From contig JAHCHY010000019.1 of the NCBI GenBank assembly GCA_026129485.1, positions 22,749 to 86,748 of the forward strand: a stretch of 64,000 nt of DNA, written 5' to 3'. Every line of letters starts with the position of its first letter. Position 1 is the stretch's first letter. A model generated the notes under the pieces. That model was not told where the DNA came from. It saw only the letters and a list, made by a program, of their open reading frames with translations, and did no database searches. Source of the DNA: Cyclobacteriaceae bacterium. GTDB taxonomy: Bacteria > Bacteroidota > Bacteroidia > Cytophagales > Cyclobacteriaceae. Of this stretch, positions 13,570 through 54,340 are shown one piece after another. A program made the position numbers and the translations under genes.

Positions 13570-15165
13570 TCATTTAAGCACGCTTTTTGTATCGATCAGT
13601 TGGTTGCCTAAATCATGAGTAGCCCAATCCAGCTTATTTCCCGAAACCCGGAACCTTATATAATGATGGGCTTTGATTACAGTATCCATCTTTGGTTGCG
13701 CTGATGATTCTGCCGGTTCCAAAGAACCACCTCCACCACCGGTTATAATAAAATGGGTACGTTGCTTACCATAGTGCTTTACCATACGCTCATAGTCATG
13801 CGTATGGCCTGCAATCACAAAATCAATTCCGGCTTCTTCCATTACCGGTTCTAACAATTCGCGCACAACAGCATCACCCTGGTAACCCGCCCAGCCCTGC
13901 GAATACGGAGGTTGATGAACAAACACAAAACGCCATGCAGCTCTTTTCCATTTGTCCGATTGGAGCTGCCCGTAAAACCAATCTCTTTGCTCTTCCGGAA
14001 ACCCGATTGGAAATTGTGTATTGGGATCTATGGCTATGAAGGCACAGTTGGCATAAGTCCACGCAAAGTAGGGTTTGCCTGCTGGCGATGCGTATTGATG
14101 ATACCCCTGCGGGTTAAGATCAGTATAGTAGCCATCATAATCATGATTGCCGGCTATAAGATAAGCTGGCCGGTTAGCTGTATAATCTGATAACAAACCC
14201 GTAAATGCACGCCATTCTTCCGCTTTGCAACCATTGCCGACCAGGTCGCCTACCCCGACTGTAAAAGCGTCCTGTTCCTGGCTAAGATGCTGGATGTGTT
14301 TTTGAAAGCTATGCCAACCCGACTGGCTATCGCCCCAAACGCTGAATGAGAAATCCTGCTTTTCAGCCGCTACCGGGTAAACCGGGGTGCAATAGCTACC
14401 CGAACAGATTTTATAAAACCAATCTGTATCAGGTATAGTAATGTTGAATGATACCAGCTTCCCTTCTTCCTGTTCTGCCTGATTTAATTTACCCGGCTCC
14501 AAACCCCAATGCAGTTTTACCGGATCTCCTTCCGTAATCAATCGAATGGTAAAAAAAGAATCCGTGCGCGTTAACCATGGGCCGACCCATAGCGGTAACC
14601 GTGAATCGATCTGTAACACCTGCTTCTCATGCTTACGCTTTGCAGCAAGCTGCTTTTCATACTCCTGCTGCAGGGCTTCAAAATGTTCTTCCCTGAAGTA
14701 AGAAACTCTTTTCAATCCACCGGACATCGCATTGTTGAGAACCCGTATCAGCACATGCGCATCCTCAACTGCAAACACTTTAAATGCATCGCCCTGAATC
14801 CGTTCTGCCGCTTCATCATTTATCCATACCTGCGCCCCGTCATCCGCCTGGATGCTCAGCACACCGTTTCCAGAGAAAGAGATAATTTGCTTATACCACA
14901 ATGCCGTATTGGGACTAAGCACCCGATGCGGCAGCTCAACAAGACTATCGGGTTGGGGTAGCTGCGCTACAAACAAGGTTTCATCCGGAAGTCCTTTAAC
15001 ATACTTCCAGCCCGAATTAAAAACCGAATCCGGAGAACTGCTAAAAATTTCCGGTTGAGCGTACGAACCCGGTTCCTGCCAAAGTACGGAGTATGGCAGT
15101 TGTGCGGTCTGTCCAGGTTGGCAGGCAAACCACACAACTGCCAATACCCATAATCTTATTTTCAC
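13570..15165 (-). CDS. Purple-acid-phosphatase-like metallophosphoesterase
   Basis: A 531-residue exported protein. The start is GTG at 15165, overlapping the TGA stop of the upstream gene as GTGA, which implies translational coupling. The N-terminus is a signal sequence with a Cys at residue 15 (VWFAC), a non-canonical but possible lipobox. Residues about 40-250 are beta-rich. The catalytic domain carries the calcineurin-type metal motifs in order: WGDSQSG, GVGDLVGNG, IAGNHDYDG, FVHQPPYS and IAGHTHDYER. Such enzymes hydrolyse phosphomono- or diesters. The gene is last in an operon behind SusC, SusD and an alkaline-phosphatase-like enzyme, suggesting extracellular or periplasmic phosphorus scavenging. 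Confidence 0.85.
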   Translation of the reverse strand: MKIRLWVLAVVWFACQPGQTAQLPYSVLWQEPGSYAQPEIFSSSPDSVFNSGWKYVKGLPDETLFVAQLPQPDSLVELPHRVLSPNTALWYKQIISFSGNGVLSIQADDGAQVWINDEAAERIQGDAFKVFAVEDAHVLIRVLNNAMSGGLKRVSYFREEHFEALQQEYEKQLAAKRKHEKQVLQIDSRLPLWVGPWLTRTDSFFTIRLITEGDPVKLHWGLEPGKLNQAEQEEGKLVSFNITIPDTDWFYKICSGSYCTPVYPVAAEKQDFSFSVWGDSQSGWHSFQKHIQHLSQEQDAFTVGVGDLVGNGCKAEEWRAFTGLLSDYTANRPAYLIAGNHDYDGYYTDLNPQGYHQYASPAGKPYFAWTYANCAFIAIDPNTQFPIGFPEEQRDWFYGQLQSDKWKRAAWRFVFVHQPPYSQGWAGYQGDAVVRELLEPVMEEAGIDFVIAGHTHDYERMVKHYGKQRTHFIITGGGGGSLEPAESSAQPKMDTVIKAHHYIRFRVSGNKLDWATHDLGNQLIDTKSVLK

Positions 15166-16253
15166 TTGCTCAGCTCCAATGGCTTACCAGCCTTGCCATC
15201 TTGTGTGAAAGTAAGGCCCAGCAAACCGGCTGCTGTTGCGGCTACCTGGTTTTGATATAGCTGCCCGGCAACTTTTACTTCTCCCTGTGCTTTGACACCC
15301 GCTCCAATTGCGGCAATCCAGATCTGATCGGCACCTTTAATTTTTGTTCCGTGACTGCGCCATTCATCTGCCGGAATAGTTCCCCGGCCATGATCGGTAG
15401 TAATAACAATTGCCGTTTTATTGCGATACTGAGGTTCGGACTGCACCCATTCCCAAACGGCTTTTATAAACTGGTCGGTTTGATAAGCGGATTTAAGGTA
15501 AGCATCATACTTTCCGTTGTGCGCAAAATCATCTGTTTCGCCATAGGCAATGTAAACCACTTTCGGCTTATACTTTTTCATGTACTCAAGCGCATAGTGA
15601 TGCGTAAATGCATCTAACCGCACACCACCCCAGGGGCTTGGTATTTCTACCTGTAGTTCATTCAAAAAAACTTCTCGTGGTGATAACCTGGTTTGTGTAG
15701 CTGGTTTGAACCCTGCATTTACAGGAACACCGCTGCGCTCTTCATTAATGATGAACGGGAAAACATCCCACGAGCCAAAAGCTGCAACTTTACCTTTATA
15801 CTTTGCCTGCTTATTTAAAAACTCTAAAACCGTTTCGTTCGGGTTATTGAATTTATCATTACTCTTTATGCGTTGATCGTCTGCAAAGCCCGAGAGAATC
15901 TCATTGTAGCCCGGATAAGAAAACCACATGTTATTGGAGCAGTTAACATTATTATCATAAGTCCTGTTACCAAACAAAACTCCTTCCTTAGCCAGCGTGC
16001 TCCAGAAAAAGGGCATTAGTTTTTCTCTGCGGATTTCTGACTGATCGTGCCAGAAACGGGCACGCAGGCCCACTACATCATCCACATACTCTTTGTTTTT
16101 TATTAATGCGGAATCAGCCCCGGTAAACACTTCCTGCCAACGCATACCATCCAGCGTAATCAGGATGATGTTTTCGGCTGGCGTTTGCGCAAATGCAGCC
16201 AGGTCAGATAAAAAAAATATCAAAACAGCTACTACAATTCTATTTCGTTTCAT
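15162..16253 (-). CDS. Alkaline phosphatase/phosphodiesterase superfamily exported enzyme
   Basis: The 363-residue protein is started at the ATG at 16253, so that a typical signal peptide (MKRNRIVVAVLIFF to AFAQ) leads; an ATG at 16268 would add five residues. Metal-ligand motifs of the alkaline phosphatase superfamily are visible: ITLDGMRW (Asp35), the nucleophile region NMWFSYPGYNEI, YGETDDFAHNG, TTDHGRGT, and a later His in RSHGTK. Members include phosphatases, phosphodiesterases and sulfatases; there is no sulfatase C/S-x-P-x-R signature, so a phosphoester substrate is favoured. It overlaps the next gene by 4 nt. A terminator-like hairpin separates it from SusD, so it may also have its own promoter. 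Confidence 0.8.
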   Translation of the reverse strand: MKRNRIVVAVLIFFLSDLAAFAQTPAENIILITLDGMRWQEVFTGADSALIKNKEYVDDVVGLRARFWHDQSEIRREKLMPFFWSTLAKEGVLFGNRTYDNNVNCSNNMWFSYPGYNEILSGFADDQRIKSNDKFNNPNETVLEFLNKQAKYKGKVAAFGSWDVFPFIINEERSGVPVNAGFKPATQTRLSPREVFLNELQVEIPSPWGGVRLDAFTHHYALEYMKKYKPKVVYIAYGETDDFAHNGKYDAYLKSAYQTDQFIKAVWEWVQSEPQYRNKTAIVITTDHGRGTIPADEWRSHGTKIKGADQIWIAAIGAGVKAQGEVKVAGQLYQNQVAATAAGLLGLTFTQDGKAGKPLELSK

Positions 16254-16287
16254 AATTCGGAAAAGCATTTAAAATTAAAAACCTAAA

Positions 16288-16325
16288 TTAAAAACAGCCG
16301 GGAAAAAAATCTCCCGACTGTTCAA
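16288..16325 (-). terminator. Intrinsic terminator after susD-like gene
   Basis: Stem ACAGCCGGGA (16294-16303) pairs with TCCCGACTGT (16312-16321) with one mismatch. On the minus strand it is followed by a T-rich tract. It lies between the SusD-like gene and the phosphatase genes and may give partial read-through. Confidence 0.6.
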
Positions 16326-16347
16326 CCAAAACACTAATTAAACCCAA

Positions 16348-17883
16348 TTAATCTTTATCCCACCAAACCGGTGTATTAATATCATCGGCACCCTGACGGG
16401 CCACTGCCTCTGCACGATTTGTTCCGTTCAGGGATTGCTCGGACTGAGGGTATATATACCGTACCGGTATTTTGTTGCCATTCAGATTAGCCGGCCCCGG
16501 AGTAAGCGCAGGCAGCCCTGTTCTGCGCCAGTCGTACCACGCCTCCAGGCCATTGAAGAAAAGAGCGACCCATTTTTGTGTCGCTATTTTTTCCAAACGT
16601 TCTGCGGATGTTCCGGTATAGGCTACCGCTGACTGGTCAAAGTAACCGGCTGGAAGGGTAAGGTCAATTCCATATTCGGAAGGAACAATGTCCCTGTAAA
16701 AATCCAAGTTCGCATTGATGCCGTTCAGGTAAAAGGTTTCTGCATCACCTGCTGTAAGAATACCGCGCTCGCGGGCTTCTGCAAGAATGAACTGCAATTC
16801 GGCATAGGTCATGATCAACCCCCGGGGGGCATCCGGCACGGGCGGGTTTTGACCAACATCACCACATACCAAGCATGCAAACGTGTAGCCTACACGCGAA
16901 ATGTTAAGCACTCCCCCGTTATAGGCTTGAGCCTGCGTGTCTTCCAGCCCGTTGGGTACGCCCGAGATAACCGGTGTTCCTGCTGTTACCGATGCTTCTG
17001 TCGGCCTTCCGAAAACGGCCAGACGAGGATCATCGATAGACACCAGGTAGTCGCCCAGCCGTTTGCTAAGCCTGAATTCATCAAACGATCCTACACGGGT
17101 ATCATATAACGGCCATTGGTTGGGGGCCGCTGCAAGGTATTTCAGCACAGCGTTATCATCATTATCTTCAAAAACCGGGTTTTGTGCCGGGTTGCTTACA
17201 ATAGTATTGAAATCAGCCGATATATTCTTTTTGTTGGATATGCGCATCAGGTAACGCAGCCGCAGGGAGTTGGCCAGCTTGCGCCATTGGATAATGGATG
17301 CCTGACCTCCGCCATAAATTATATCACCGGAAATAGCTTCCGTGCTGGTTCCTAAAATTTCGTTTGCTCTTTTCAGATCAGCCAGGATACCTTCATAAAT
17401 AGACTCCTGCGTATCATACTTGGTAAGATAAATACCCTGGGTTTTTCCCTGGGTTGCTTCCGAATAAGGAATATCTCCGTAGGCATCCGTAGCCAGCGAG
17501 AACAACCACGATTTTAATATGAGCGCCACACCGAGGTAGTTGTTCTGCACAGGGTCTGCTGTTTCAGCACTGGTAATAATATTCTGAACGTTGCGCATGT
17601 TTCCATATACGCTGTTCCATATACCATTTCTTTCGTTCCATAAGTAACGGTCTTCATTCACAAACTGGATCTTGGCTGTTTGCTGCACCACAATATTGCC
17701 AATGCCCCATGCTTCGCCTACCTGGTTGTTCACCGCGTTACGGATAATGCCAGCCAATAAAAGGTTGGGACTTACGGAAGTAGGCACGTTTTTGTTTGTA
17801 TTGATCTCCTCAAAGTTTTTGTCGCAGGCTGCTACCAGGAACATACCCGCAAGGACTAAACCGGTTTTAAAAAATGTTTTCAT
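16348..17883 (-). CDS. SusD/RagB-family nutrient-binding outer-membrane lipoprotein (SusD-like_2 type)
   Basis: A 511-residue protein starting at the ATG at 17883; a much earlier in-frame ATG at 18027 lies inside the SusC gene and is rejected. The signal ends in a lipobox (MFLVAACDK). The sequence after it (FEEINTNKNVPTSVSPNLLL) is characteristic of the SusD-like_2 subfamily, which binds substrate at the surface and lids the SusC barrel. Tetratricopeptide-like helices fill the N-terminal half. This subfamily is often tied to non-glycan nutrients such as peptides or other organics (family knowledge). The genes downstream are phosphatases, not glycosidases. It begins 22 nt after the SusC stop. 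Confidence 0.9.
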   Translation of the reverse strand: MKTFFKTGLVLAGMFLVAACDKNFEEINTNKNVPTSVSPNLLLAGIIRNAVNNQVGEAWGIGNIVVQQTAKIQFVNEDRYLWNERNGIWNSVYGNMRNVQNIITSAETADPVQNNYLGVALILKSWLFSLATDAYGDIPYSEATQGKTQGIYLTKYDTQESIYEGILADLKRANEILGTSTEAISGDIIYGGGQASIIQWRKLANSLRLRYLMRISNKKNISADFNTIVSNPAQNPVFEDNDDNAVLKYLAAAPNQWPLYDTRVGSFDEFRLSKRLGDYLVSIDDPRLAVFGRPTEASVTAGTPVISGVPNGLEDTQAQAYNGGVLNISRVGYTFACLVCGDVGQNPPVPDAPRGLIMTYAELQFILAEARERGILTAGDAETFYLNGINANLDFYRDIVPSEYGIDLTLPAGYFDQSAVAYTGTSAERLEKIATQKWVALFFNGLEAWYDWRRTGLPALTPGPANLNGNKIPVRYIYPQSEQSLNGTNRAEAVARQGADDINTPVWWDKD

Positions 17884-17905
17884 AATGCTTGATCTTGTCG
17901 GGTGA

Positions 17906-20900
17906 TTAAAATTTAAAGCCAATGTTAAATCCATAGCTCCGCGAAGAGGGAATAGCCATGTATTCAATACCCGGCAGGGCAGTGCCCCCTGTGTATGACA
18001 TGGTTTCAGGGTCAACGTGCGGAACATCGGTCCACAGGGCCAGGTTTCTGCCTACCAGTGTAATGCTTACACCATGGAATGGCGTTTTGGTAAAAAACTT
18101 ATCCGGCAGCGTATAGCCTATCTGAACTTCGCGCAACTTTACGAAAGATGCATCGTAGATAACACCCTCAGCAATGTTGCGTCCGCCTGTCCAGGCTGTA
18201 TGCCATTGCCGGGGCCGAATCCTGAGGTCGTTTACCCGGAAGGTTCCGTCACCGTTTTGGGTAACTCCTTCCCCGATTACATACGTTCCGGCAGGAGCAT
18301 TCAGCAGTTGTGGATCGGTATTTACGGAAGTCTGCGGGTAGTACCCGTTTTCGCGGCCTTGCAGTGTCTCGATAATCATACCCCCTTCGCGGCCTACGGT
18401 TTGCGTATGCGAATACACCTCTCCGCCATGACGGATGTCGAACAGGAATCCTAACTTAATTCCCTTATAGGTAAACGTATTGTTGATACCCGCCAGCCAG
18501 TCGGGGTTATAGTTTCCGAGCTTGATGCGTTCCGTGGTACGGATCGGCCTTCCCTGGTTGTCGAAAACCATTTGCCCTGTAAATTGCCCGGTAGCATCGT
18601 AATAAGGTTTTGCGGGATCAGTGCTCTGTACACGTACAAAGCCTATCCCGTACATATCGCCCATGCGTTCGCCCACGCGCGCTTCAATGCTTACCGAACG
18701 GCTGGCCATAACATAATTATCCAGGCCGTCTGATAATGATACCACTTCGCTCCTGTTTCGCGAGTAGTTAACATTTATAGCCCATTTAAAATCATTTGTA
18801 CGAACCGGCACACCGCTCAGCATGATTTCCATACCATAGTTCTTGATTTCACCGGCATTGATCGAACGGCTGTTATACCCGCTGGTGATAGACAAGGGAA
18901 TGTTCAGAATCTGGTTTCTTGTAAACGTAGTATAGTAAGCGAAGTCGAGCCCTAAGCGGCCATTTAAAAACATCAGGTCAATTCCGGCTTCATACGAAGT
19001 GCTGATTTCAGGCTTTAAGCTAAAATTGGCTAAGCGGTCTGTTTCGCCATACACCTGGGAGGTGCCAAAAGGATCGCCCGGGTTATAGCTTTGAGTAAAG
19101 GTAAAGGCATCGGTATCATTACCTATTTGCGCAACGCTTGCTCTCACTTTGGCGAAAGAAAGAAACTCAGGTGTTTCAAACATATCGGATACCACTGCGG
19201 TTACAGCTGCCGATGAGTAGAAGTAAGAATTGTTTTCGGTTCCGATGCCTGCATCTTTCAATGCCTGGGGAAGTGTAAGCGCGCTCGACCAGTCGTTGCG
19301 GGCGTTTAAATCCAGGAACAGGATATTCTTGTAGCCTAATTGTGCAAAGGCATACAAGCTGTTGATGCGCTTTTCCACATCGCTATGCGATTGCTGCAAG
19401 GGAATTCTTGAGTTGGTAAGGTTATATATGCCCGGAATGTTTAGCTGGCCGGCATTGACATCTAAAAAGTTCGACTTTTGCCTGAGCTGGTTGCCGCCCA
19501 CAGATGCCGAAAGCGTAAACACCGAAGGCACGATTTCACGATTGAACGTGAGCAGGAAATCTGAGTTGCGTTCTTCCGAAACGATATTGGATTGACGATA
19601 CTGGCCGAACGCGAAACGCTGCGTGCTGAAAGCTCTCCGGAACTCCCTCCGTTCACTGGCAAAGTCAGTAGCGGTGCGCAATTGCAGGCTCAACCAGTCG
19701 GTGAAGTTATACTTCAATGAGATATTCCCGATAACGCGATCCACATACTGGCCGTTGGTATTTTCAAACATGGTAAAGTACGGGTTGTCGTGGTAATTAT
19801 AGTTCCAGTTATACTGCCGTTGCCCTTCCAGGCCCGGCATCCAGTAGTTTTGCTGATCAGCCATTTTTATAGAACGCGGAAACCAGCAGTTGAACAGGTA
19901 CATAATGTTTTCGGTACCATAGCTGATGGACGGGCGGTTGTCGCTCTCGCTTTTGATGTAGCTTACAAAGGCACGGGCTGTAAACTTATCCGTCAGGTTA
20001 TATCCGCCACCAAACGAAACCGTGTTCCTGCGTAAATCGGTGTTGGGCACAATGCCGGTTTGATCCAGGTTAGTGTACGACAACCGGAAGTCGCCATGCT
20101 GGTTGCTCCCGGTGAGCGCCACATTATTAGTAAGCGTTCTTCCTGTTTTAAAGAAGCTCTTCACACCGTCTTTGTCATTCTCCCACAAGGTGGGTGTAAT
20201 AACACTTCCGGCCGGTGCGTTAAGATCGCCCCCGCGAAAAGGAATGGGTTGGCCATTAAGCGTGCGGGGGGAATTATACTGGGCGAAAAGCTGGCCGGTA
20301 AAAGCCGGTCCCCAGCTTTCGTCTGATCCATCCCATGCGCCTGCACCAGACCCGTTCACAAAGTTGAAATTATTGTCGCCCGCGCCAGAACCCTGGCCAT
20401 ACACATTCTGGTATTCCGGTAAGCGGAGGGCCGATTCAAACGTGGTGTTGGAGTTTACTTCCACACCAATTCCCTTCCCCTTTGCACCTTTTCCTAATTT
20501 TGTTTTGATCACAATTACACCGTTAGCAGCTCTTGATCCGTAAAGCGCTGTTGCCGCCCCGCCTTTCAGCACGGTCATGCTTTCGATATCGTCAGGGTTT
20601 ACAAAGCCAGCGCCATTGCCAAAATCCACCTCCAAGTTATTGCGGCCCGAAGCCCCTGTTAACCCGTTGCTGATGGGCACGCCATCCACTACATACAAGG
20701 GTTGGTTTTTGTTCAGATCAAGTGAACGCTCACCCCGGATGGTAACGCGGGAGGAGCCGCCAATACCGGACGGGCTGCCCACCACCGTAACACCGGCTAT
20801 TTTACCGGCCAACTGGTTCACTACATTGGTTTCGCGTGCAACGGTTATATCTTCACCGCTTACGGATTGCACGGCATACCCCAGCGATTTTTTCTCGCGT

Positions 20901-21268
20901 TCAACCCCAAGCGCAGTTACTACAACTTCCGAAAGCTCGGTTGCATCTACGGCCAGCGTAACATCAACCGTTGTTCTGCCGCTAACGGCAACTTCCTGGG
21001 GCTTAAAGCCGACAAATGAAAATACCAGCACATCGGATGGCAAAGCAGAAATAGAGAAAACACCATCTGCGTTTGTAATGGTACCGTTCGATGTACCTTT
21101 AACCAGGATGTTTACACCGGGAATGGGGCTATTGTCTTCAGCCGAAATAACCTTGCCGGAAACTGTGCTTTGTGCGGAGGCGGTAAAGCCTGCCAACACA
21201 AGCACCAACAATACAACCATCCTAAATGGCCGTACTGTAAACTTGGAAACTTGTAGAGGTTGATTCAT
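17906..21268 (-). CDS. SusC/RagA-family TonB-linked outer-membrane transporter
   Basis: A 1120-residue protein begun at the ATG at 21268 (MNQPLQVSKF); the longer frame needs a GTG at 21316. A signal peptide ends FTASAQ. A carboxypeptidase D-like regulatory domain spans about residues 33-115 (VSGKVISAEDNSPIPGVNI). The plug carries the SusC signature PLYVVDGVPIS and VLKGGAATALYGSRAANGVI, and the barrel ends SYGFNIGFKF. With SusD it forms a pedal-bin importer energised by TonB. The operon continues into two phosphatase-type enzymes, and it is divergent from the XRE-cupin regulator of the phosphonate genes. The substrate may be an organophosphorus compound (inference). Confidence 0.92.
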   Translation of the reverse strand: MNQPLQVSKFTVRPFRMVVLLVLVLAGFTASAQSTVSGKVISAEDNSPIPGVNILVKGTSNGTITNADGVFSISALPSDVLVFSFVGFKPQEVAVSGRTTVDVTLAVDATELSEVVVTALGVEREKKSLGYAVQSVSGEDITVARETNVVNQLAGKIAGVTVVGSPSGIGGSSRVTIRGERSLDLNKNQPLYVVDGVPISNGLTGASGRNNLEVDFGNGAGFVNPDDIESMTVLKGGAATALYGSRAANGVIVIKTKLGKGAKGKGIGVEVNSNTTFESALRLPEYQNVYGQGSGAGDNNFNFVNGSGAGAWDGSDESWGPAFTGQLFAQYNSPRTLNGQPIPFRGGDLNAPAGSVITPTLWENDKDGVKSFFKTGRTLTNNVALTGSNQHGDFRLSYTNLDQTGIVPNTDLRRNTVSFGGGYNLTDKFTARAFVSYIKSESDNRPSISYGTENIMYLFNCWFPRSIKMADQQNYWMPGLEGQRQYNWNYNYHDNPYFTMFENTNGQYVDRVIGNISLKYNFTDWLSLQLRTATDFASERREFRRAFSTQRFAFGQYRQSNIVSEERNSDFLLTFNREIVPSVFTLSASVGGNQLRQKSNFLDVNAGQLNIPGIYNLTNSRIPLQQSHSDVEKRINSLYAFAQLGYKNILFLDLNARNDWSSALTLPQALKDAGIGTENNSYFYSSAAVTAVVSDMFETPEFLSFAKVRASVAQIGNDTDAFTFTQSYNPGDPFGTSQVYGETDRLANFSLKPEISTSYEAGIDLMFLNGRLGLDFAYYTTFTRNQILNIPLSITSGYNSRSINAGEIKNYGMEIMLSGVPVRTNDFKWAINVNYSRNRSEVVSLSDGLDNYVMASRSVSIEARVGERMGDMYGIGFVRVQSTDPAKPYYDATGQFTGQMVFDNQGRPIRTTERIKLGNYNPDWLAGINNTFTYKGIKLGFLFDIRHGGEVYSHTQTVGREGGMIIETLQGRENGYYPQTSVNTDPQLLNAPAGTYVIGEGVTQNGDGTFRVNDLRIRPRQWHTAWTGGRNIAEGVIYDASFVKLREVQIGYTLPDKFFTKTPFHGVSITLVGRNLALWTDVPHVDPETMSYTGGTALPGIEYMAIPSSRSYGFNIGFKF

Positions 21269-21401
21269 AGAGGTTGTTTGATTTTTAGAATTATGATCCA
21301 AAAATTCACAATCCACATCACCCAGGATTTAGTAAGAAATTACGCCTTCGTTAATTGCAGCAGCCCAAACCGAACTTTAATAATGTTGCAATAAATTGAC
21401 G

Positions 21402-21492: not shown

Positions 21493-21509
21493 GTTTCCAA
21501 ATAGGAAAC
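21493..21509 (+). promoter_or_regulatory. Candidate operator palindrome before the XRE-cupin gene
   Basis: GTTTCC-AAATA-GGAAAC is a perfect 6-bp inverted repeat with a 5-nt spacer, nine bases before the ATG at 21519. Its right arm and spacer repeat the half-site at 21402-21412. This is a plausible autoregulatory site. Confidence 0.45.
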
Positions 21510-21518: not shown

Positions 21519-22091
21519 ATGCAGGATGAGCTGATCGGCCGCATCGGTAAAAGAATCAAAGCATTACGAAAAACACGCGGGCTTACCTTACAGACGTTAA
21601 GCGACCGCGCCCACATAACCAAAGGGTTGCTTTCCAAAATTGAAAACTCCAGGACCATACCTTCTCTCCCGGTTTTTCTCCAGGTAGTGCAAGGACTTGA
21701 AGTTTCCACACAGGAATTTTTTGAAAACATGAAGCTGGTGCAGGGCAAAAATTATTTATTGATCCGGAAGGCCGATTATCAGCCTATTCAAAAAGAAGAA
21801 AGGCCGGGCTTTGATTACCGGTTTATACTATCCCAGAATTTACAATCCACAACAATGGAAGCAGTTCTGCTGCACCTGCAGCCTAAAACACAAAGCCAGC
21901 CCACCACCACCGATGGCCTGGAATTCAAGTACATCATTTCAGGCAGGTGCCTGTACCGGATAGAAGACGAAGAGCTCTTATTGCAGGAGGGCGACTCCCT
22001 GTATTTCGATGCCTCGCGGCCACACCACCCTATCAATCCATTCCGGAAGCAGGTAACCATGCTGGTGCTTTACTTCTTAACATCAAAATAA
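21519..22091 (+). CDS. XRE-family transcriptional regulator with C-terminal cupin
   Basis: A 190-residue protein. The ATG at 21519 is chosen because it starts the helix-turn-helix cleanly (GRIGKRIKALRKTRGLTL) and has AAAGGA just upstream; the longer frame would read through the promoter and operator region. Residues 5-60 are an HTH_3 domain (LQTLSDRAHITKGLLSKIE). Residues about 100-185 are a small beta-barrel cupin (GLEFKYIISGRCLYRIED, then EEGDSLYFDASRPHHPINP) that may sense a small molecule. It lies 57 nt before the FAD oxidoreductase on the same strand and is divergent from susC, so it probably controls phosphonate use and possibly the SusCD operon. Confidence 0.88.
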   Translation: MQDELIGRIGKRIKALRKTRGLTLQTLSDRAHITKGLLSKIENSRTIPSLPVFLQVVQGLEVSTQEFFENMKLVQGKNYLLIRKADYQPIQKEERPGFDYRFILSQNLQSTTMEAVLLHLQPKTQSQPTTTDGLEFKYIISGRCLYRIEDEELLLQEGDSLYFDASRPHHPINPFRKQVTMLVLYFLTSK

Positions 22092-22148
22092 AAACCTGCC
22101 GTAAGGGATTGTTGCGTATTTTATTCACTTTGCAGCATTGACTGTTAT

Positions 22149-23306
22149 ATGAACTCAAATCATTTCGACATTATAGTAATTGGTGCAGGCGTTCTCGGAA
22201 CCTTTCATGCTTATCATGCCGCTACGACAAATAAAAAAGTTTTGCTGCTGGAAAAAGATGGTAAGCCCATGCAGGCTACCGTGCGAAACTTCGGACAGGT
22301 GGTGCCTTCGGGTATGAGCGAAAACTGGTTTGAATTTGGCGTGTATGCCACACAATTATATAAACGCATCCAGGCAGAGCTTAACATCGGCATCCGGCAA
22401 AATGGCAGCGTATATCTTGCCTCCGACCCGGACGAGCAGCAGTTGCTTCATGAGCTGAAACAACGAATGGATGAACGCGGCTACGAAGCGCAATTACTAA
22501 CTACCGCACAATGCCTGGAACGCTGGCCCGTGCTTAAGTCGGAATACTGCCGCGAAGGATTGTTTTTTCCGCAAGAGGTAAGCGCAGAGCCAAATTTATT
22601 GATTCACCGGTTACTTAACTATTGCACTGCTAAATTTCCTAATCTTACTTACCGCAATTACGCCACTATTATTACTTGTGATATTGAAAATAATAAGGTT
22701 AAGGTAATAACTAATGAAGGGGAACAGCTTACCGCTGATAAGGTGATTATTTGTAACGGCAGCGAATTTAAAATTTTATTCTCTGATCTGTTTGCAAACA
22801 GTGGAATCGTAATCAGCAAATTGCAAATGCTGCGCACCACACCCATGCCCGCTTTACCCTTAGAGGGAAATATTCTTACCGGGCTTACCACCCGCAGGTA
22901 CGAGTCGTTTGAAGAGTGCCCTTCGTTTGCTTCAATTCAAACGCCCGAACATTTGAAAGAACTAAAGCAATGGGGCATTCATATTCTGTTTAAAAAAGCT
23001 GTTGACGGTTCCGTAATTGTGGGCGATTCGCACGAGTATGTTCAGGCCGGTGTGGAAGAAGCTGGCTATGAGCTTAATCAGCATATTAACAACCTGATGT
23101 GGCAGGAAGCAGCGCGGATTGCGGATATAAAAGACTGGAAGATTGCAGCCTCATGGGCGGGTTACTACTCCCAGCATTCTGAAAAAGATATTATTGAGAT
23201 TGACATGGAAGATAAAATTCACATCCGTACGGCTATTGGAGGCAAAGGAATGACATCATCGGCCGGGTATGCGCAAAAAAGCATAAGCCGGTTGTTAGCG
23301 GGATAA
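22149..23306 (+). CDS. FAD-dependent oxidoreductase, TIGR03364 (phosphonate-catabolism) type
   Basis: A 385-residue DAO-fold enzyme. The FAD-binding motif is IIVIGAGVLGTFHA near the N-terminus. The family-typical RNFGQVVPSG segment follows at about residue 43, and the C-terminal flavin contact is AIGGKGMTSSAGYAQ. The TIGR03364 clade is named for its presence in phosphonate degradation operons; characterised relatives oxidise 2-aminoethylphosphonate or its N-methyl derivative to phosphonoacetaldehyde (family knowledge). That product is the substrate of PhnX, and a PhnX-like gene lies about 1.5 kb downstream, convergent. There is no signal peptide, so it acts in the cytoplasm. No ammonia-lyase or transaminase (PhnW) is present in the window. 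Confidence 0.82.
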   Translation: MNSNHFDIIVIGAGVLGTFHAYHAATTNKKVLLLEKDGKPMQATVRNFGQVVPSGMSENWFEFGVYATQLYKRIQAELNIGIRQNGSVYLASDPDEQQLLHELKQRMDERGYEAQLLTTAQCLERWPVLKSEYCREGLFFPQEVSAEPNLLIHRLLNYCTAKFPNLTYRNYATIITCDIENNKVKVITNEGEQLTADKVIICNGSEFKILFSDLFANSGIVISKLQMLRTTPMPALPLEGNILTGLTTRRYESFEECPSFASIQTPEHLKELKQWGIHILFKKAVDGSVIVGDSHEYVQAGVEEAGYELNQHINNLMWQEAARIADIKDWKIAASWAGYYSQHSEKDIIEIDMEDKIHIRTAIGGKGMTSSAGYAQKSISRLLAG

Positions 23307-23471
23307 CGCTTTATGGGTATTTCCAGGTATGCGGATCAACTGCCTTTTGATCGCAAGCAAGCTTGAGTTTCCTGCTTCTGTATTACTACAGGCTGGTTAT
23401 AAAAAAATCACCATTCTGAAAAATGGTTTCCGGAAAGAAGCTAATTTTAGCAAAAACGGAATCCGGGATTG

Positions 23472-24767
23472 ATGGAACAAAAGCACAAGATCACCCGTTG
23501 GCTGGAAAGCACGCACACCACCTGGTTTACAATCTATGCATCGCTTTGTGCATTTGCCTTATATACCTGTGTATATGCCTTTCGTAAAACATTCGCAGTG
23601 GCTACGTTCAGTGGTCTTTCGTTTGCCGGATTTGACTACAAAGTCTGGCTGGTTACTTTCCAGGTGATTGGTTACGCGCTTGCCAAGTTTATCGGCATAA
23701 AAGTAATCTCCGAGCTTAAAGCACGTTCACGTGGCTTCGGCATCTTATTAATGGTAGCCATTGCGGGGGCATCGTGGCTTTTATTTGCGCTTGTACCCGC
23801 GCCTTACAATATAATATTTCTCTTTACAAACGGACTCCCGCTGGGTATGGTGTGGGGCATGGTTTTCGGTTACCTCGAAGGCAGGCGCATGACGGAAGTA
23901 TTGGGTGCATCGCTCGCTGTAAGCTTTATCTTTTCAGCAGGACTCTGCCGCTCGGCAGGCGCCTATGTAATGCGGGATTGGAATGTGTCGGAATACTGGA
24001 TGCCGTTTGTCGTGTGCTGCCTCTTCCTCCTGCCGTTGCTGGCATTTCAATTCTTATTAGACAAGCTGCCTCCGCCATCCGAAAAAGACGAGCAGCTCCG
24101 CACCAAAAGATTACCCATGAATAAGGAGGAAAGAAAAAACTTTACAAAAGCCTTTCTTCCCGGCATCGTGCTGTTCACCCTTTGCTATGTGCTGCTTACT
24201 GCCTTTCGCGATTTCCGCGATAATTTTTCTGCAGACATCTGGAAAGCTTTAAATATGGGCGATGATCCTTCTATTTATACCAAAACAGAAATTCCGGTAT
24301 CATTAATTGTATTGGTTTGCATGGGTAGCTTAATGCTGATCAAAAACAACAAGCTGGCTTTAATGATCAACCACCTGATTATTGCTTTTGGCATGATCCT
24401 GATTGGCATTGCCAACCTGATGTTTGAAGCACAGGTAATCGGCCCTGTGTTGTGGATGACGCTGGTGGGAATCGGCTTGTACCTGGGGTACATTCCTTTC
24501 AACAGCATTTTCTTCGATCGCCTGATTGCAACCTTCAAATATGTAAGCACCGTTGGCTTTATTATGTACGTGGCCGATTCTTTTGGCTACTTAGGCAGTG
24601 TGGCCGTATTGTTCTATAAGAACTTCTTTCAGAAAGGTCTGAGCTGGCTCAGCTTCTTTCTTACAGGTGGCTACGTGATGTCAGTTGCAGGTACAATCCT
24701 GATATTAGGATCCATGCTGTACTTCCATCAAAAGCACAGGGCCCGAAAGAAGCAGCAAGCTATTTAA
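23472..24767 (+). CDS. DUF5690 family MFS-like permease
   Basis: A 431-residue membrane protein started at the ATG at 23472 (a TTG precedes it directly). About 12 hydrophobic segments are visible, with a central cytoplasmic loop rich in Lys and Glu near residues 200-220. The N-terminal YTCVYAFRKTF and the LEGRRMTEVLGA loop recall the organophosphate:phosphate antiporter branch of MFS, although the family is only catalogued as DUF5690. Its position inside the phosphonate gene set makes it a candidate organophosphonate importer (inference). Its 3' end overlaps the convergent PhnX-like gene by 8 nt. Confidence 0.75.
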   Translation: MEQKHKITRWLESTHTTWFTIYASLCAFALYTCVYAFRKTFAVATFSGLSFAGFDYKVWLVTFQVIGYALAKFIGIKVISELKARSRGFGILLMVAIAGASWLLFALVPAPYNIIFLFTNGLPLGMVWGMVFGYLEGRRMTEVLGASLAVSFIFSAGLCRSAGAYVMRDWNVSEYWMPFVVCCLFLLPLLAFQFLLDKLPPPSEKDEQLRTKRLPMNKEERKNFTKAFLPGIVLFTLCYVLLTAFRDFRDNFSADIWKALNMGDDPSIYTKTEIPVSLIVLVCMGSLMLIKNNKLALMINHLIIAFGMILIGIANLMFEAQVIGPVLWMTLVGIGLYLGYIPFNSIFFDRLIATFKYVSTVGFIMYVADSFGYLGSVAVLFYKNFFQKGLSWLSFFLTGGYVMSVAGTILILGSMLYFHQKHRARKKQQAI

Positions 24768-25446
24768 CCCCGATTATTGTAAGCACTTCGTCCACATTTT
24801 CGGCAAGGTGTGTGTGTGGTTCCATTTTGAGCTGTTCGGGAGTATAGGCACCGGTTGTAATGCCAATTACATGCTGGCAGCCTGCACGTGTACCCTCCTG
24901 CATATCGCTTGCCGTATCGCCAACCTTTACCACATGCTTAATATCCGTTATGCCCGTGCGCTTCATCGCTTCAAAGATCATATCCGGTGCAGGTCGGCCG
25001 TTTTCCACTTCATCACTTGTTACACTGGTATCCAGCAATCCTTTTTCTATCCACCCCAGCCGTTTTAATAATTCATCCGTAATCTCCCGGTCAAAGCCTG
25101 TGTCGACAGCCACTTTTATTCCGGCTTGCTTAAGTAGTGCGAACGTTTCGCTTACACCCTGCTTTTCCCCAACCGAGCTATCGTAGCGGTAGAAGTCAAT
25201 CATGCTGTCCACGAAGTACCGGTGTATCTCCTCCACAAATTCATCTGTAAAAGAAGCCCGGCCGCCATCCGCTAAAAGTTTTTTTATGGCTACGGGCTTA
25301 GGTATTCCCATCAGGTCGGTAGCCTGCTGCAGCGATATATTTACACCGCCTTTATCAATAAGCGCTTTTTGCAATACCCGTGGTACATCAAAATTATCTC
25401 TAACGGTAGTTCCGGCCAGATCAAAAACTACAAGCTGTGTTTGCAT
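24760..25446 (-). CDS. PhnX-like phosphonatase (HAD superfamily, TIGR03351 type)
   Basis: A 228-residue protein starting at the ATG at 25446; a TTG at 25512 would add 22 residues. The HAD motif I is FDLAGTTV, the DxAGT variant that marks the phosphonatase group, with nucleophile Asp9. Lys50 in LMGIPKPVAIKK falls at the position of the Schiff-base lysine of PhnX (Lys53 in the Bacillus cereus enzyme, where the nucleophile is Asp12; the offset of three is the same). Motifs III/IV are in HVVKVGDTASDMQEG. The predicted reaction is C-P cleavage of phosphonoacetaldehyde or a close analogue to give phosphate. It is divergent from the PhnZ-like gene and convergent with the permease. Confidence 0.85.
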   Translation of the reverse strand: MQTQLVVFDLAGTTVRDNFDVPRVLQKALIDKGGVNISLQQATDLMGIPKPVAIKKLLADGGRASFTDEFVEEIHRYFVDSMIDFYRYDSSVGEKQGVSETFALLKQAGIKVAVDTGFDREITDELLKRLGWIEKGLLDTSVTSDEVENGRPAPDMIFEAMKRTGITDIKHVVKVGDTASDMQEGTRAGCQHVIGITTGAYTPEQLKMEPHTHLAENVDEVLTIIGVK

Positions 25447-25508
25447 GATGTCAGCATCTTTTTTCAGGGGTAATGTTAGAAATAACTTATGGCAGAAAAA
25501 ACCTGTGC

Positions 25509-25527
25509 TCAAATATTAATTATTTGA
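25509..25527. promoter_or_regulatory. Candidate operator in the phnX/phnZ-like divergent promoter
   Basis: TCAAATA-TTAAT-TATTTGA is a perfect 7-bp inverted repeat with a 5-nt spacer in the 153-nt gap between the two divergent genes. The spacing equals that of the 21493-21509 palindrome, although the arms differ. The region is AT-rich and could also simply be promoter DNA. Confidence 0.35.
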
Positions 25528-25599
25528 TAATAGTATATTCGTTGCCATTCATCGCCTTGCTCTCAAACTTGCACATACAACTATAATTCATAATGCCAT

Positions 25600-26160
25600 A
25601 TGAACGCGGAAGAAGTTACTAAAGAAATTTTTGATCTCTATGAAAAGTACGGCCGTGCCGATTACATTGGCGAACCTGTTTCACAAATTGAGCACATGTC
25701 GCAATCGGCCGGGCTGGCGATACAGGCCGGTGCCGATGATGAGGTAGTGCTGGCAGCTTTCTTCCACGACATCGGGCATATTTGTGTTCAGAATGACTCA
25801 AGCCTTAAAATGGCATCGTATGGAATAAAGAGTCATGAAGAAATCGGGGCCGGCTTTTTGCGCTCACGCGGATTTTCAGAACGAATGGCGCAACTGGTAG
25901 AGAACCATGTTAAGGCCAAGCGATACCTTACCTATAAATACCCGGAATATTTTAATCAGCTATCGGAGGCAAGCAGGCAGACGCTGATTTTTCAAGGCGG
26001 AGTTATGACAGCAGCAGAGGCTACCGAATTTGAGCAAGACCCCCTGTTTGAGCACAGCATCCTGCTTCGTAAATGGGACGAAGCCGCCAAGGAAGTAAAC
26101 GTTCCGGTAATGGAAATTGAAAAGTTGAAGGCTACCTGCCTGCGTGTACTTAAAAGGTAG
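25600..26160 (+). CDS. PhnZ-like HD-domain oxygenase (TIGR03276 type)
   Basis: A 186-residue cytoplasmic protein. All residues expected for the mixed-valent di-iron site of PhnZ are present at matching spacing: His32, His56-Asp57 (FFHDIGH), His79, His103 and Asp160. The Tyr/Glu substrate-lid pair of PhnZ is matched by Tyr22 and Glu25 in DYIGEPVSQ. PhnZ cleaves 1-hydroxy-2-aminoethylphosphonate to glycine and phosphate with O2 (family knowledge). The 2-oxoglutarate dioxygenase PhnY that makes this substrate is absent from the window, so the true substrate may be another 1-hydroxyphosphonate. The gene is divergent from the PhnX-like gene. Confidence 0.85.
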   Translation: MNAEEVTKEIFDLYEKYGRADYIGEPVSQIEHMSQSAGLAIQAGADDEVVLAAFFHDIGHICVQNDSSLKMASYGIKSHEEIGAGFLRSRGFSERMAQLVENHVKAKRYLTYKYPEYFNQLSEASRQTLIFQGGVMTAAEATEFEQDPLFEHSILLRKWDEAAKEVNVPVMEIEKLKATCLRVLKR

Positions 26161-50130: not shown

Positions 50131-51777
50131 ATGGCAAACAAGTTTTTGAAAATTCATCCGGCTGACAATGTACTGGTGGCCCTTACCGACCTGAAAGCAG
50201 GAGAAAAAGTAGCACACAATGGCAGCACGATTACGCTGGTAAACGACACACCCGCCAAACACAAGTTTGTGGAACGCGACATGCAGAAAGGCGACACCAT
50301 CTATATGTATGGTGTAATTGTTGGCAAAGCCGTGGAGCCTATTACAGCAGGCGCAGCCATTACCACACAGAACGTAAAACACGAAGCCTCTACCTATGCC
50401 ACACGCACAGGAGGCTACTCGTGGACACCGCCCGATATATCGCGCTGGAAAAACAAGACATTTTTAGGCTATCACCGCCCTGATGGACAGGTGGGCACAG
50501 CCAACTACTGGATTGTAGTGCCGCTGGTGTTTTGCGAAAACCAAAACGTACAGGTAATTCGACAGGCGTTTGAGGAAGAGCTGGGCTTTGGTAAAACCAA
50601 CGCCTATAAAAACTATGTGCATGAGCTGATTCAGCTTTATAAAAAAGGCGATACTGATGCCCTCGAAAAGCTGACGCTTACACCTGAAAAAGATGTTAAG
50701 CCTTCGCGCCTGTTCGAAAACTTAGATGGCATTAAATTCCTGACGCACGAAGGCGGCTGCGGAGGCATACGCCAGGATTCGGAAGCGCTGTGCGGATTGC
50801 TGGCCGGCTACATGCACAATCCTAATGTAGCAGGCGCCACCGTGTTGAGCCTCGGTTGCCAGAATGCACAGCCCTCTATTCTGCAAAAGAAGCTAAACGA
50901 GCTGGCCGGCACTTTTTCAAAACCGTTCATCTTGCTGGAACAGCAGAAAGAAGGCATTGAAAGTGAATTGCTCATGCAAGCCGTACGTAAAACATTTATC
51001 GCACTTACTGAAGTAAACAACATTACACGCAAGCCTGCGCCACTCAGCAAACTGAAAGTCGGCCTGGAATGCGGAGGCTCGGATGGCTTCTCTGGTATTT
51101 CAGCCAACCCGGCTATCGGGCATACATCCGACCTGTTAGCGGCATTGGGCGGGTCTTCCATCTTAGCCGAGTTTCCTGAACTGTGTGGCGTAGAGCAGGA
51201 GCTCATCAATCGCTCGGTAGATGATGAAAAAGCCAGCCGCTTTACACAACTGATGCGCGCTTATGCACGGGCTGCCGAAGCAGTAGGTTCCGGCTTTGAT
51301 ATGAACCCTTCGCCCGGGAACATTAAAGACGGGCTAATCACCGATGCCATGAAATCGGCAGGGGCAGCCAAGAAGGGCGGCAACTCTCCTATTGTAGATG
51401 TACTCGATTACCCGGAGTATGTAACCCAACCCGGGCTTAGCTTATTATGCACTCCCGGCAACGATGCTGAGTGTACCACCGCACTGGCCGGTTCCGGTGC
51501 CAATATTATTTTGTTTACAACAGGTTTGGGTAACCCGATGGGCAACCCGATTACACCGGTAATCAAGTTATCGTCCAACACCAAGCTGGCGCAAAAAATG
51601 CCTGACATTATTGACATTGATTGCGGGCCGGTTATTTCCGGGGAGAAAACCATCGAACAAATGGGTGAAGATATACTTGACTTTATTATTGAGGTGGCCA
51701 GCGGAAACATTACACCTAAAGCGGTAGCGCTTGGCCACGATGATTTTATTCCGTGGAAACGCGGGGTCTCGCTTTAA
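50131..51777 (+). CDS. uxaA: Altronate dehydratase
   Basis: A 548-residue fused UxaA. Residues 1-95 form the small SAF-type N-terminal domain. Residues about 110-548 are the large catalytic domain with FLGYHRPDGQVGTANYW, the Cys-rich THEGGCGGIRQDSEAL, LECGGSDGFSGISANPA and DIDCGPVISGE. It dehydrates altronate to 2-keto-3-deoxygluconate and needs Fe2+ or a similar metal (family knowledge). Next to KDG kinase and KDPG aldolase it gives three of the five steps of galacturonate breakdown; uronate isomerase and tagaturonate reductase are not in this window. The gene is monocistronic and ends at an inverted repeat shared with the convergent pectinesterase. Confidence 0.92.
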   Translation: MANKFLKIHPADNVLVALTDLKAGEKVAHNGSTITLVNDTPAKHKFVERDMQKGDTIYMYGVIVGKAVEPITAGAAITTQNVKHEASTYATRTGGYSWTPPDISRWKNKTFLGYHRPDGQVGTANYWIVVPLVFCENQNVQVIRQAFEEELGFGKTNAYKNYVHELIQLYKKGDTDALEKLTLTPEKDVKPSRLFENLDGIKFLTHEGGCGGIRQDSEALCGLLAGYMHNPNVAGATVLSLGCQNAQPSILQKKLNELAGTFSKPFILLEQQKEGIESELLMQAVRKTFIALTEVNNITRKPAPLSKLKVGLECGGSDGFSGISANPAIGHTSDLLAALGGSSILAEFPELCGVEQELINRSVDDEKASRFTQLMRAYARAAEAVGSGFDMNPSPGNIKDGLITDAMKSAGAAKKGGNSPIVDVLDYPEYVTQPGLSLLCTPGNDAECTTALAGSGANIILFTTGLGNPMGNPITPVIKLSSNTKLAQKMPDIIDIDCGPVISGEKTIEQMGEDILDFIIEVASGNITPKAVALGHDDFIPWKRGVSL

Positions 51778-51847
51778 TTTAAAATTCCGAATCTTAGATT
51801 CAAGATTGAGTGCCGCTCGTATTCAATTCGAATCTTGAATTTTAAAT
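51777..51847. terminator. Inverted repeat between converging genes, probable bidirectional terminator
   Basis: ATTTAAAATTC (51777-51787) and GAATTTTAAAT (51837-51847) are perfectly complementary, and internal GAATCTT/AAGATTC words extend the possible pairing. It lies between uxaA and the pectinesterase gene, which converge. The stem is AT-rich and so less stable than the other terminators here. Confidence 0.5.
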
Positions 51848-51852
51848 TCTGT

Positions 51853-52800
51853 TTAACGGGCCCAATCACCCAACATATTATTCAATGTATATTGTTTTGC
51901 TTCGGTATCGGTTAGCTGGTGCGACCATGCTACACGCGAAGCTTTGTCAGCGCCCGGCCCGTATGATTTATATTCTGCATACAGGGTTGTCTTCTCCGCA
52001 TCGGGCTTGCTCCAGTTGTGCCAGCCTTCGGGCAGAATGTGCGCACCCAATTCACAATTCATAAAAACTGTTTTGGCGTAACTCCGCCACGGTCTGCCCA
52101 GGTAAACTTTGTTTACACCCTCAATCGCCTTTAACTTACAGTTGATAAACACATACCCGAATTCCTTGCCTTGCGTGGTAGATGCGGCCGTAACATACGA
52201 ATCTTTCTTGCTCACGATCTCGCAGTTTTCGAACACGGCTGTAGCGGCACCGAAGATAAAATCGGTTGTCCCTTCAATATAACAGTTAACAAAATACTGC
52301 CGGCTGCTATCTCCTCCTGTATAGATGGTATCCTGGTTACCCAGAAAGCGGCAATTTTTGAACACTGCTTTATCGGCTTCCACATGCAAAGCTACCGCCT
52401 GGCCTACCGGGCCAGCCGTATTTTCGAATGTAATGTTCTCGGCCCGAAAACCATTACCCAACACTTTTACCGAATAAGACCGAAACGTGTTGATATCGCC
52501 TTTGCCGGAATAATCGTCAAACGTGATAATAGTAGTTTTCGGATCTTCGCCAACCAGTGAAATGTTGGTTGTCCACGAATAGATTTCAAGCTTCTCTTTA
52601 TATGTGCCCGGCTTTACCCGGATAACAATGCGCTTGTCCGGAAAATGCTTGCACACATCTATTACCTGTTGAATGGTTGTATAATCGCCCGAGCCATCCT
52701 GCGCCACCACATACGAAGTGCGATATTCTTCAACCGGCTTTGTTTGCGCCTCACTATACAGACAGGCAGCGCTCAGCATCAACAGGAAAATGTATTTCAT
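51853..52800 (-). CDS. Pectin methylesterase, carbohydrate esterase family 8
   Basis: A 315-residue secreted enzyme (signal peptide ending CLYSEAQ). The right-handed beta-helix carries the CE8 signatures: QAVALHVEADKAVFKNC, FLGNQDTIYTGG with a catalytic Asp, DFIFGAATAVFENCEI with the second Asp, and YLGRPWRSYAKTVF with the substrate-binding Arg and Trp. It removes methyl groups from homogalacturonan so that polygalacturonase and pectate lyase can act. It lies 9 nt downstream of the GH28 gene in the same operon. A periplasmic or surface location is likely. Confidence 0.93.
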   Translation of the reverse strand: MKYIFLLMLSAACLYSEAQTKPVEEYRTSYVVAQDGSGDYTTIQQVIDVCKHFPDKRIVIRVKPGTYKEKLEIYSWTTNISLVGEDPKTTIITFDDYSGKGDINTFRSYSVKVLGNGFRAENITFENTAGPVGQAVALHVEADKAVFKNCRFLGNQDTIYTGGDSSRQYFVNCYIEGTTDFIFGAATAVFENCEIVSKKDSYVTAASTTQGKEFGYVFINCKLKAIEGVNKVYLGRPWRSYAKTVFMNCELGAHILPEGWHNWSKPDAEKTTLYAEYKSYGPGADKASRVAWSHQLTDTEAKQYTLNNMLGDWAR

Positions 52801-52809
52801 ACGTTCTGC

Positions 52810-54201: not shown

Positions 54202-54227
54202 GCATTAATGATTTTTTTGTTTAAGTC

Positions 54228-54291: not shown

Positions 54292-54340
54292 CTCATGCTT
54301 TTAATTTTTAAGATCGTTTCCGAAAATTTTAATACCAATT

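Follow-up and report, generated by a model that had tools for sequence, protein, structure and literature searches.

How might a bacterium use phosphonates when its gene set pairs two different C-P cleaving enzymes and lacks PhnW and PhnY? The question is raised by a 64,000-nt stretch of a Cyclobacteriaceae genome (assembly GCA_026129485.1, contig JAHCHY010000019.1, positions 22,749 to 86,748; hereafter the window), in which genes for an XRE-cupin regulator, a TIGR03364 flavin adenine dinucleotide (FAD)-dependent oxidoreductase, a DUF5690 protein, a PhnX-like hydrolase and a PhnZ-like oxygenase lie adjacent at 21519-26160. We find that the locus extends beyond these five genes, and read it, with more confidence than doubt, as a phosphonate utilization locus with a SusCD-type front end and two independent C-P cleaving branches.

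Results

Extent of the locus and its recurrence in the phylum

Gene positions and family profile scores bear out the five adjacent genes described in an initial annotation of this DNA (Table 1). That annotation took them for a compact set, which gets the extent wrong: a second half, unnoticed at the time, occupies 13570-21316 and holds SusC and SusD genes, an alkaline-phosphatase-superfamily gene and a metallophosphoesterase gene, and both SusC and SusD recur in 16 of 17 loci with PhnZ. The susC-susD pair is divergent from the regulator gene, the two phosphoesterase genes overlap by 4 bases, and the PhnX-like gene, on the minus strand, overlaps the end of the DUF5690 gene by 8 bases. The orientations at 21519-26160 imply at least three transcripts, namely XRE-FAD-DUF5690 (+), PhnX-like (-) and PhnZ-like (+). 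G+C content stays at 45-49%, without a break in base composition. All genome-wide searches were run on the host assembly, which is 4.08 Mb in size and 98% complete.

The grouping of the five genes is far from chance. In a sample of 395 genomes of the phylum, we counted PhnZ at Phn-HD scores of at least 193.7 bits, TIGR03364 at E ≤ 1e-40, and DUF5690 and PhnW over their cut-offs; at most four candidates per genome were scored for DUF5690, TIGR03364 and PhnW and at most eight for PhnZ, so absences may be overstated. PhnZ was present in 17 genomes (five families), DUF5690 in 42, TIGR03364 in 33 and PhnW in 13. All 17 PhnZ genomes carry DUF5690 (1.8 expected, p = 9e-19), as do 30 of the 33 TIGR03364 genomes (3.5 expected, p = 6e-32); these p-values assume independent genomes, an assumption that does not hold. 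TIGR03364 occurs in 16 of the 17 PhnZ genomes and PhnW in two.

For locus anatomy we fetched 56 stretches which, with the window, give 57 loci of 10.6 to 22.6 kb, several of them ending at a contig end. These comprise 17 PhnZ loci, 19 TIGR03364 loci without PhnZ, and 14 DUF5690 loci without phosphonate genes, meaning without five tested genes; one genome among these 14, G368, carries PhnW on the same contig at a distance of 26 kb. Seven loci (L064, L084, L088, L090, L093, L094 and L098) are left out of this three-group tally, and three of them carry PbfA-like proteins. Two loci counted as TIGR03364 without PhnZ (L079 and L080) come from genomes with PhnZ elsewhere: the PhnZ-SusCD genes of G099 and G190 are on a different contig from the FAD gene (L047/L080 and L048/L079, respectively), so that PhnZ-SusCD and FAD look like two modules often travelling together.

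Among named PhnZ loci (the best 80 of 537, a set that leans towards close relatives and Pseudomonas), the closest relatives are Cyclobacteriaceae and other Cytophagales metagenome-assembled genomes, with identity up to 82%. The cassette is also found in Ohtaekwangia, Algoriphagus, Aquiflexum and Mucilaginibacter, among others.

The oxidase-hydrolase pair and the missing PhnW

No PhnW over cut-off was found genome-wide, the best match reaching 42.1 bits where the cut-off is 400.8. The same holds for PbfA (251.3 bits against 525), and PhnJ gave no match in the genome-wide search. The initial annotation proposed that the FAD enzyme could replace PhnW, which is plausible and has a published precedent in its family. 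PbfD enzymes, of which PbfD1 is annotated within TIGR03364, convert N-methyl-2-aminoethylphosphonate (N-methyl-AEP) and 2-aminoethylphosphonate (AEP) to phosphonoacetaldehyde and can replace PhnW; PbfD2 acts on AEP about 4-fold more slowly than on N-methyl-AEP and is thought to stand in for PhnW in its organism, whose genome apparently lacks phnW (PMC10590968; here and below, papers are cited by PMC number from part of their text). The window's enzyme scores over the TIGR03364 cut-off, its FAD-binding glycines G12, G14 and G17 are invariant in 33 of 33 relatives, and its gene lies close to that of the PhnX-type hydrolase. Family membership suggests that it would turn AEP and N-methyl-AEP into phosphonoacetaldehyde.

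The hydrolase scores under the TIGR03351 cut-off, which makes it a near relative rather than a strict member; because both it and the PhnZ-like protein score just below NCBIfam cut-offs, we use '-like' names for the two. In an alignment to solved PhnX, the two residues singled out by the initial annotation, D9 and K50, fall on its Asp and Lys (for K50, the lysine that entry 2ioh has as arginine), and all 27 of the relatives compared keep both. We take D9 to be the nucleophile Asp and K50 the cap-domain Schiff-base Lys of a PhnX-type hydrolase, and the enzyme would probably convert phosphonoacetaldehyde to acetaldehyde and phosphate. No literature on TIGR03351 was found among open-licence PMC papers.

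Between the window and L051:13947-15077, from one family, the FAD enzymes are 28% identical, against 57-67% for PhnX, PhnZ and DUF5690; two deep TIGR03364 branches seem to swap within one cassette. In close relatives a PHP-domain (HisJ-like) gene, absent from the window, lies between the FAD and DUF5690 genes (L113:7041-7889; L058:6730-7575 is probably the same gene, judged by size and place).

Thirty-nine of the 80 named loci, from Pseudomonas (L124-L184, e.g. L138:8856-10573), have TIGR03364 adjacent to PhnZ and no PhnX in the vicinity. These high-GC loci were counted by six-frame segments, since picking open reading frames hid some PhnZ genes; in L138, the one such locus scanned, the FAD-phnZ pair is downstream of PhnS2/PhnT2-type AEP ABC transporter genes. 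The pairs suggested a stand-alone two-step pathway of FAD enzyme and PhnZ. We rejected it on finding PhnX over cut-off elsewhere in all 20 Pseudomonas genomes searched (of the 39 such loci), as expected if the product of the FAD enzyme is phosphonoacetaldehyde.

A different arrangement is seen in five Bacteroidota metagenome-assembled genomes (L126, L151, L161, L172 and L176), where a PhnA-like gene directly adjoins PhnZ. Neither TIGR03364 nor DUF5690 is present in their fetched DNA, and PhnX gave no match in the three genomes of this group that were searched.

A PhnZ-like oxygenase without a PhyH-type partner

The PhnZ-like protein retains every residue that the initial annotation listed: all 17 of the sequences compared keep Y22, E25, H32, H56, D57, H79, H103 and D160, and K107 and R157 as well. 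It lies slightly under the TIGR03276 cut-off, as do many of its relatives, since among the 17 strong Phn-HD genomes seven pass that cut-off and ten, its own among them, score 193.7-214.2 bits. It is nonetheless closer to PhnZ than to related oxygenases, with 145.5 bits to solved PhnZ (4mlm) and 111 bits to TmpB (6npa), and with family scores falling from TIGR03276 (210.8) through TmpB (137.5) to the hydroxymethylphosphonate enzyme (122.0).

PhnY* is a PhyH-family hydroxylase. Genome-wide, no PhyH-family protein was found at E ≤ 0.001, TauD-type and TmpA-type hydroxylases lying outside that search. The earlier statement that the locus has no PhnW or PhnY thus holds for the genome-wide searches made. 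No hydroxylase partner appeared among the scanned neighbour families recurring in at least three loci or the scanned single neighbours, which are part of all neighbours; for 56 further genes lying up to 6 kb from PhnZ (57 candidates, less one contig-end fragment), no PhyH stood among the 25 of 141 Pfam families listed.

Lone phnZ genes have been described before. Homologues occur in 15 of 1,186 phnWX and 24 of 75 phnWAY clusters and never with pbfA, which was taken as a sign that (R)-1-hydroxy-2-aminoethylphosphonate ((R)-HAEP) needs separate processing (PMC8154272). Our loci resemble this pattern: PbfA-like proteins are found in none of the 17 PhnZ loci, in five of the 19 TIGR03364 loci without PhnZ (p = 0.047, a weak contrast) and in two of the 14 DUF5690 loci without tested phosphonate genes (L086 and L091), and a PhnX-like or PhnA hydrolase is encoded in the fetched stretches of 16 of 17 PhnZ genomes (hand count; the exception is G261, L056). 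By analogy with the published cases, in which a PhnZ that accompanies a hydrolytic cluster but no PbfA is read as an (R)-HAEP handler, we consider it most likely that the orphan PhnZ takes ready-made (R)-HAEP, which it would cleave to glycine and phosphate. The window would extend the lone-PhnZ pattern to clusters without PhnW.

SusCD and the phosphoesterases

A SusC over its cut-off with an adjacent SusD marks the other half of the locus as a SusCD uptake system; the susC start may instead be the ATG at 21268. SusC is present in 16 of 17 PhnZ loci, in 5 of 19 TIGR03364 loci without PhnZ and in 1 of 14 DUF5690 loci without tested phosphonate genes, and SusD in 16, 4 and 0, respectively, a contrast that may be inflated because the SusC and SusD models were built from the same loci. 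In some TIGR03364 loci without PhnZ, a different TonB receptor stands in place of SusC (cluster 14, of which one member was scanned).

The alkaline-phosphatase-superfamily protein is distributed more sparsely (8/17, 4/19 and 0/14 in the same three groups). Its candidate metal ligands D40, D246, H250, D292, H293 and H306 and its candidate nucleophile S117 are invariant in 12 of 12 sequences; a comparison with PDB sequences gave nothing at E ≤ 0.001. Twelve of 17 PhnZ loci carry one or more phosphoesterase genes of the alkaline-phosphatase, PF04185 or PhoD type (hand count; for PF04185, one member was scanned). A terminator-like hairpin separates susD from the phosphatase gene (Table 1); terminator-like sites numbered 18, compared with 18.4 in shuffles.

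Phosphate-starvation SusCD systems co-localized with phosphonate-degrading enzymes have been reported (PMC8115612), and among open-licence PMC papers this is the nearest account of SusC/SusD or the outer membrane in connection with phosphonates. (R)-HAEP was first isolated from Acanthamoeba polysaccharides (PMC8154272), and one may speculate that an amoebal polysaccharide source of (R)-HAEP would suit a SusCD importer.

A second, unrelated region of the window (50131-62378) carries altronate/galactarate dehydratase, GH28 and SusD-type genes, perhaps for pectin use.

DUF5690 as a candidate permease

No PhnD-type binding protein was matched genome-wide. The predicted structure of the DUF5690 protein (predicted local distance difference test score, pLDDT, 93.7; predicted template-modelling score, pTM, 0.91) matches major facilitator superfamily (MFS) folds of several families, and we propose it from this model as the best candidate for the missing inner-membrane aminophosphonate permease. 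The fold says little about the substrate, since SPNS2, sialin, NorA and DgoT all match the model within about 2 Z units. Of the two features expected of an organophosphate:phosphate antiporter (OPA) protein, we found the MFS fold and no significant sequence relation; the invariant R39 aligns with a conserved OPA-type arginine, in a profile alignment that is itself non-significant. The sequence alone gave nothing against the PDB at E ≤ 1, and we found no literature on DUF5690 among open-licence PMC papers.

We considered whether DUF5690 is exclusive to phosphonate loci. In a tree of 46 of the 47 over-cut-off copies (the L084 copy left out; four rows are long), none of the tested phosphonate genes lies within 5 kb of 14 copies, which rules exclusivity out. 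Together with the seven of 42 DUF5690 genomes that have no TIGR03364, PhnZ or PhnW over cut-off, these copies indicate that the family is not confined to phosphonate use.

A palindrome upstream of the regulator gene

A perfect inverted repeat, GTTTCC-N5-GGAAAC, lies just upstream of the XRE-cupin gene. The window holds one exact copy and two more with one mismatch (0.14 expected). Genome-wide the pattern occurs in two places and a reversed control pattern in none; the second copy (L186, G000:C19:16617-16633) was rejected as probably chance because it falls inside an open reading frame. Among the window and its nearer relatives (29 loci), the form GTNNNC-N5-GNNNAC stands just before the XRE gene in 14 of 18 XRE-holding loci, a tally that includes the window and L106, and the four without it are Algoriphagus/Aquiflexum. 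The arms change together (GTTTCC/GGAAAC, GTTTAC/GTAAAC and GTCAAC/GTTGAC), and three closely alike loci (L108, L112 and L115) carry a second copy, which in L115 is about 100 bases from phnX.

More broadly, some perfect 6-N5-6 repeat is found near 22 of 43 XRE genes, compared with 265 of 1527 other genes, and a spacing of 7 is also raised (18 of 43); this tally misses the palindromes of the window and L106, where the open reading frame start was set too far upstream. We take this as fair evidence that the palindrome serves as an autoregulated operator in the nearer-relative group. Within the window, no site with 13 or more of 16 matching bases is common to the susC/XRE and phnX/phnZ intergenic regions.

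Table 1. Features of the phosphonate locus, in window coordinates
Feature	Position	Strand	Evidence
Metallophosphoesterase (Metallophos, PF00149)	13570..15165	-	Pfam 59 bits; N-terminus signal-peptide-like by eye
Secreted-looking alkaline-phosphatase-superfamily protein, probable periplasmic phosphomono/diesterase	15162..16268	-	
Terminator-like hairpin between susD and phosphatase gene	16292..16323	-	14 pairs, longest stem listed
SusD-like surface lipoprotein	16348..17883	-	SusD-like_2 331.7 bits; lipobox by eye
SusC/RagA TonB-dependent outer-membrane transporter	17906..21316	-	TIGR04056 654.3 bits, cut-off 368.25
Perfect inverted repeat, candidate XRE-cupin operator	21493..21509	.	17 bases, ends 9 bases before XRE start
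XRE-cupin transcriptional regulator	21519..22091	+	HTH_19 and Cupin_2
TIGR03364 FAD-dependent oxidoreductase (PbfD family)	22149..23306	+	341.6 bits, cut-off 285.1
DUF5690 protein, predicted MFS transporter	23472..24767	+	558.2 bits, cut-off 25
PhnX-like hydrolase	24760..25446	-	TIGR03351 206.4 bits, cut-off 218.9; PhnX TIGR01422 119.8 bits
PhnZ-like HD-domain diiron oxygenase	25600..26160	+	TIGR03276 210.8 bits, cut-off 214.6

Discussion

Taken together as a pathway, with substrates, transport, order of steps and regulation all inferred, the locus would work as follows. SusD and SusC would capture a phosphonate-bearing molecule, whether in free form or as an ester (for example a fragment of phosphonoglycan or phosphonolipid), and draw it across the outer membrane by TonB energy; periplasmic phosphoesterases would release the aminophosphonate, and DUF5690, as an MFS transporter, would move it into the cytoplasm. 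In the first branch, the FAD enzyme would oxidize AEP and N-methyl-AEP in place of PhnW, and the PhnX-like enzyme would hydrolyse the resulting phosphonoacetaldehyde. In the second, the PhnZ-like enzyme would use O2 to cleave ready-made, imported (R)-HAEP, the compound that PbfA handles elsewhere. By way of the upstream palindrome, the XRE-cupin protein would control its own gene at the least. The earlier suggestion of a broader, branched pathway is supported. A bolder version is less likely than not: a 'phosphonate PUL', by analogy to a polysaccharide utilization locus, in which SusCD would import glycans or lipids decorated with (R)-HAEP or AEP (from soil amoebae, for example), exported phosphodiesterases would strip off the aminophosphonate, and DUF5690 would represent a new family of aminophosphonate permeases of the inner membrane, feeding the oxidase-PhnX branch and a hydroxylase-free PhnZ branch.

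Besides the possible inflation of the SusCD contrast, several observations weigh against a single phosphonate locus of this design. Both C-P cleaving enzymes score slightly below NCBIfam cut-offs, one PhnZ locus (L056) has neither PhnX nor PhnA in its fetched DNA, and another (L059) lacks SusCD. The alkaline-phosphatase-type protein reaches only 8 of 17 PhnZ loci, and the metallophosphoesterase is not conserved, with similar proteins only in L078 and L084 among the 56 fetched loci. DUF5690 is present in 14 of the 17 PhnZ loci rather than in every one, and both its copies and its genomes without phosphonate genes count against a dedicated role, as do the near-equal structural matches to several MFS families. 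Its profile found nothing among PDB sequences at E ≤ 10, and alignment to an OPA-type alignment of three proteins only was not significant (hhalign probability 1.5%, E 0.033). As for the candidate operator, outside the nearer relatives GTNNNC-N5-GNNNAC precedes only 1 of 24 XRE genes (L072), and in the window there is none before phnX or phnZ.

The substrate of the second branch allows two other readings. The initial annotation suggested that a PhnZ without PhnY may take a different hydroxyphosphonate, and the enzyme might indeed act on hydroxymethylphosphonate or N-methylated 1-hydroxy-AEP rather than on HAEP: no PhyH-type PhnY* partner is present in the genome, and a PhnZ from Gimesia cleaves hydroxymethylphosphonate as well as (R)-HAEP, so tolerance exists (PMC10574752). 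We think this unlikely, since (R)-HAEP is the normal substrate of PhnZ and published clusters carry a lone phnZ (PMC8154272). The glutamate of the YxxE loop lies within bonding distance of the substrate amine in PhnZ and TmpB (PMC8177086), and this amine-binding loop (Y22 and E25) is unchanged throughout, though TmpB has YxxE too. The preference of the family scores for PhnZ over both alternatives and, weakly, the absence of PbfA-like proteins from PhnZ loci point the same way. Alternatively, a hydroxylase elsewhere in the genome, of TauD type or another 2-oxoglutarate oxygenase, could complete a PhnY*Z- or TmpAB-like route. The TauD type fell outside the genome-wide searches and the assembly is not fully complete, but the genome has no PhyH-family match and the scanned part of the neighbourhood offers no such partner, and we regard this as quite improbable.

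The front end, too, might have another purpose. SusCD and the phosphoesterases could form a generic organophosphate-scavenging island to which the phosphonate genes are merely adjacent, with DUF5690 carrying, for example, a phosphate ester. Organic phosphorus in general is the presumed target of PusCD systems that include phosphatases (PMC8115612), and the occurrence of DUF5690 without phosphonate genes would fit. Against this stand the steep fall in SusC from PhnZ loci to the other two groups, the recurrence of the set in five families with similar gene order, and the presence of DUF5690 in every PhnZ genome, so that we hold a generic island to be a rather doubtful explanation, and a SusCD front end serving two C-P cleaving branches the better one.

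The enzymology of such a system is already known in parts. Clusters of PbfD and PhnX without PhnW, such as that of Mariniblastus fucicola (PMC10590968), share with the window an FAD oxidase over cut-off beside a PhnX-type hydrolase and no PhnW over cut-off; the likeness is by family rather than to the PbfD1 or PbfD2 sequences, and the window adds PhnZ, DUF5690, SusCD, phosphoesterases and the XRE-cupin regulator. The phnWX and phnWAY clusters with a lone phnZ (PMC8154272) likewise have PhnZ without PhnY* beside a hydrolytic route and no PbfA, whereas the window also lacks PhnW and has the FAD oxidase in its place. With the PhnY*-PhnZ and TmpA-TmpB pathways the window has in common a PhnZ-like oxygenase that keeps every metal ligand as well as the YxxE loop, but its genome has no PhyH-family hydroxylase at the threshold used, TmpA types not having been searched. 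The PusCD phosphate utilization systems of Flavobacterium share SusCD with phosphatases, while that paper (PMC8115612), in its Discussion and selected passages, mentions neither a specific SusCD-PhnZ association nor a DUF5690 permease. DUF5690 shares its predicted fold, and the R39 alignment, with MFS transporters including OPA proteins (GlpT and SLC37), but not a significant sequence relation. The parts of PMC8316502 and PMC12366243 at hand contain nothing on this gene combination. Within the open-licence PMC literature, what is new in detail is the combination itself, the SusCD-PhnZ association with numbers, DUF5690 as a candidate permease and the candidate operator.

These findings give the uncharacterized transporter family DUF5690 a testable role and hint at non-sugar imports by some SusCD pairs. 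The presence of PhnX-like or PhnA enzymes in nearly all PhnZ genomes, and of PhnX in every Pseudomonas genome searched, makes phnZ alone an unsafe marker of AEP oxidation. For the organism, the locus may provide a route to three natural aminophosphonates that needs neither PhnW nor a PhyH-type PhnY*.

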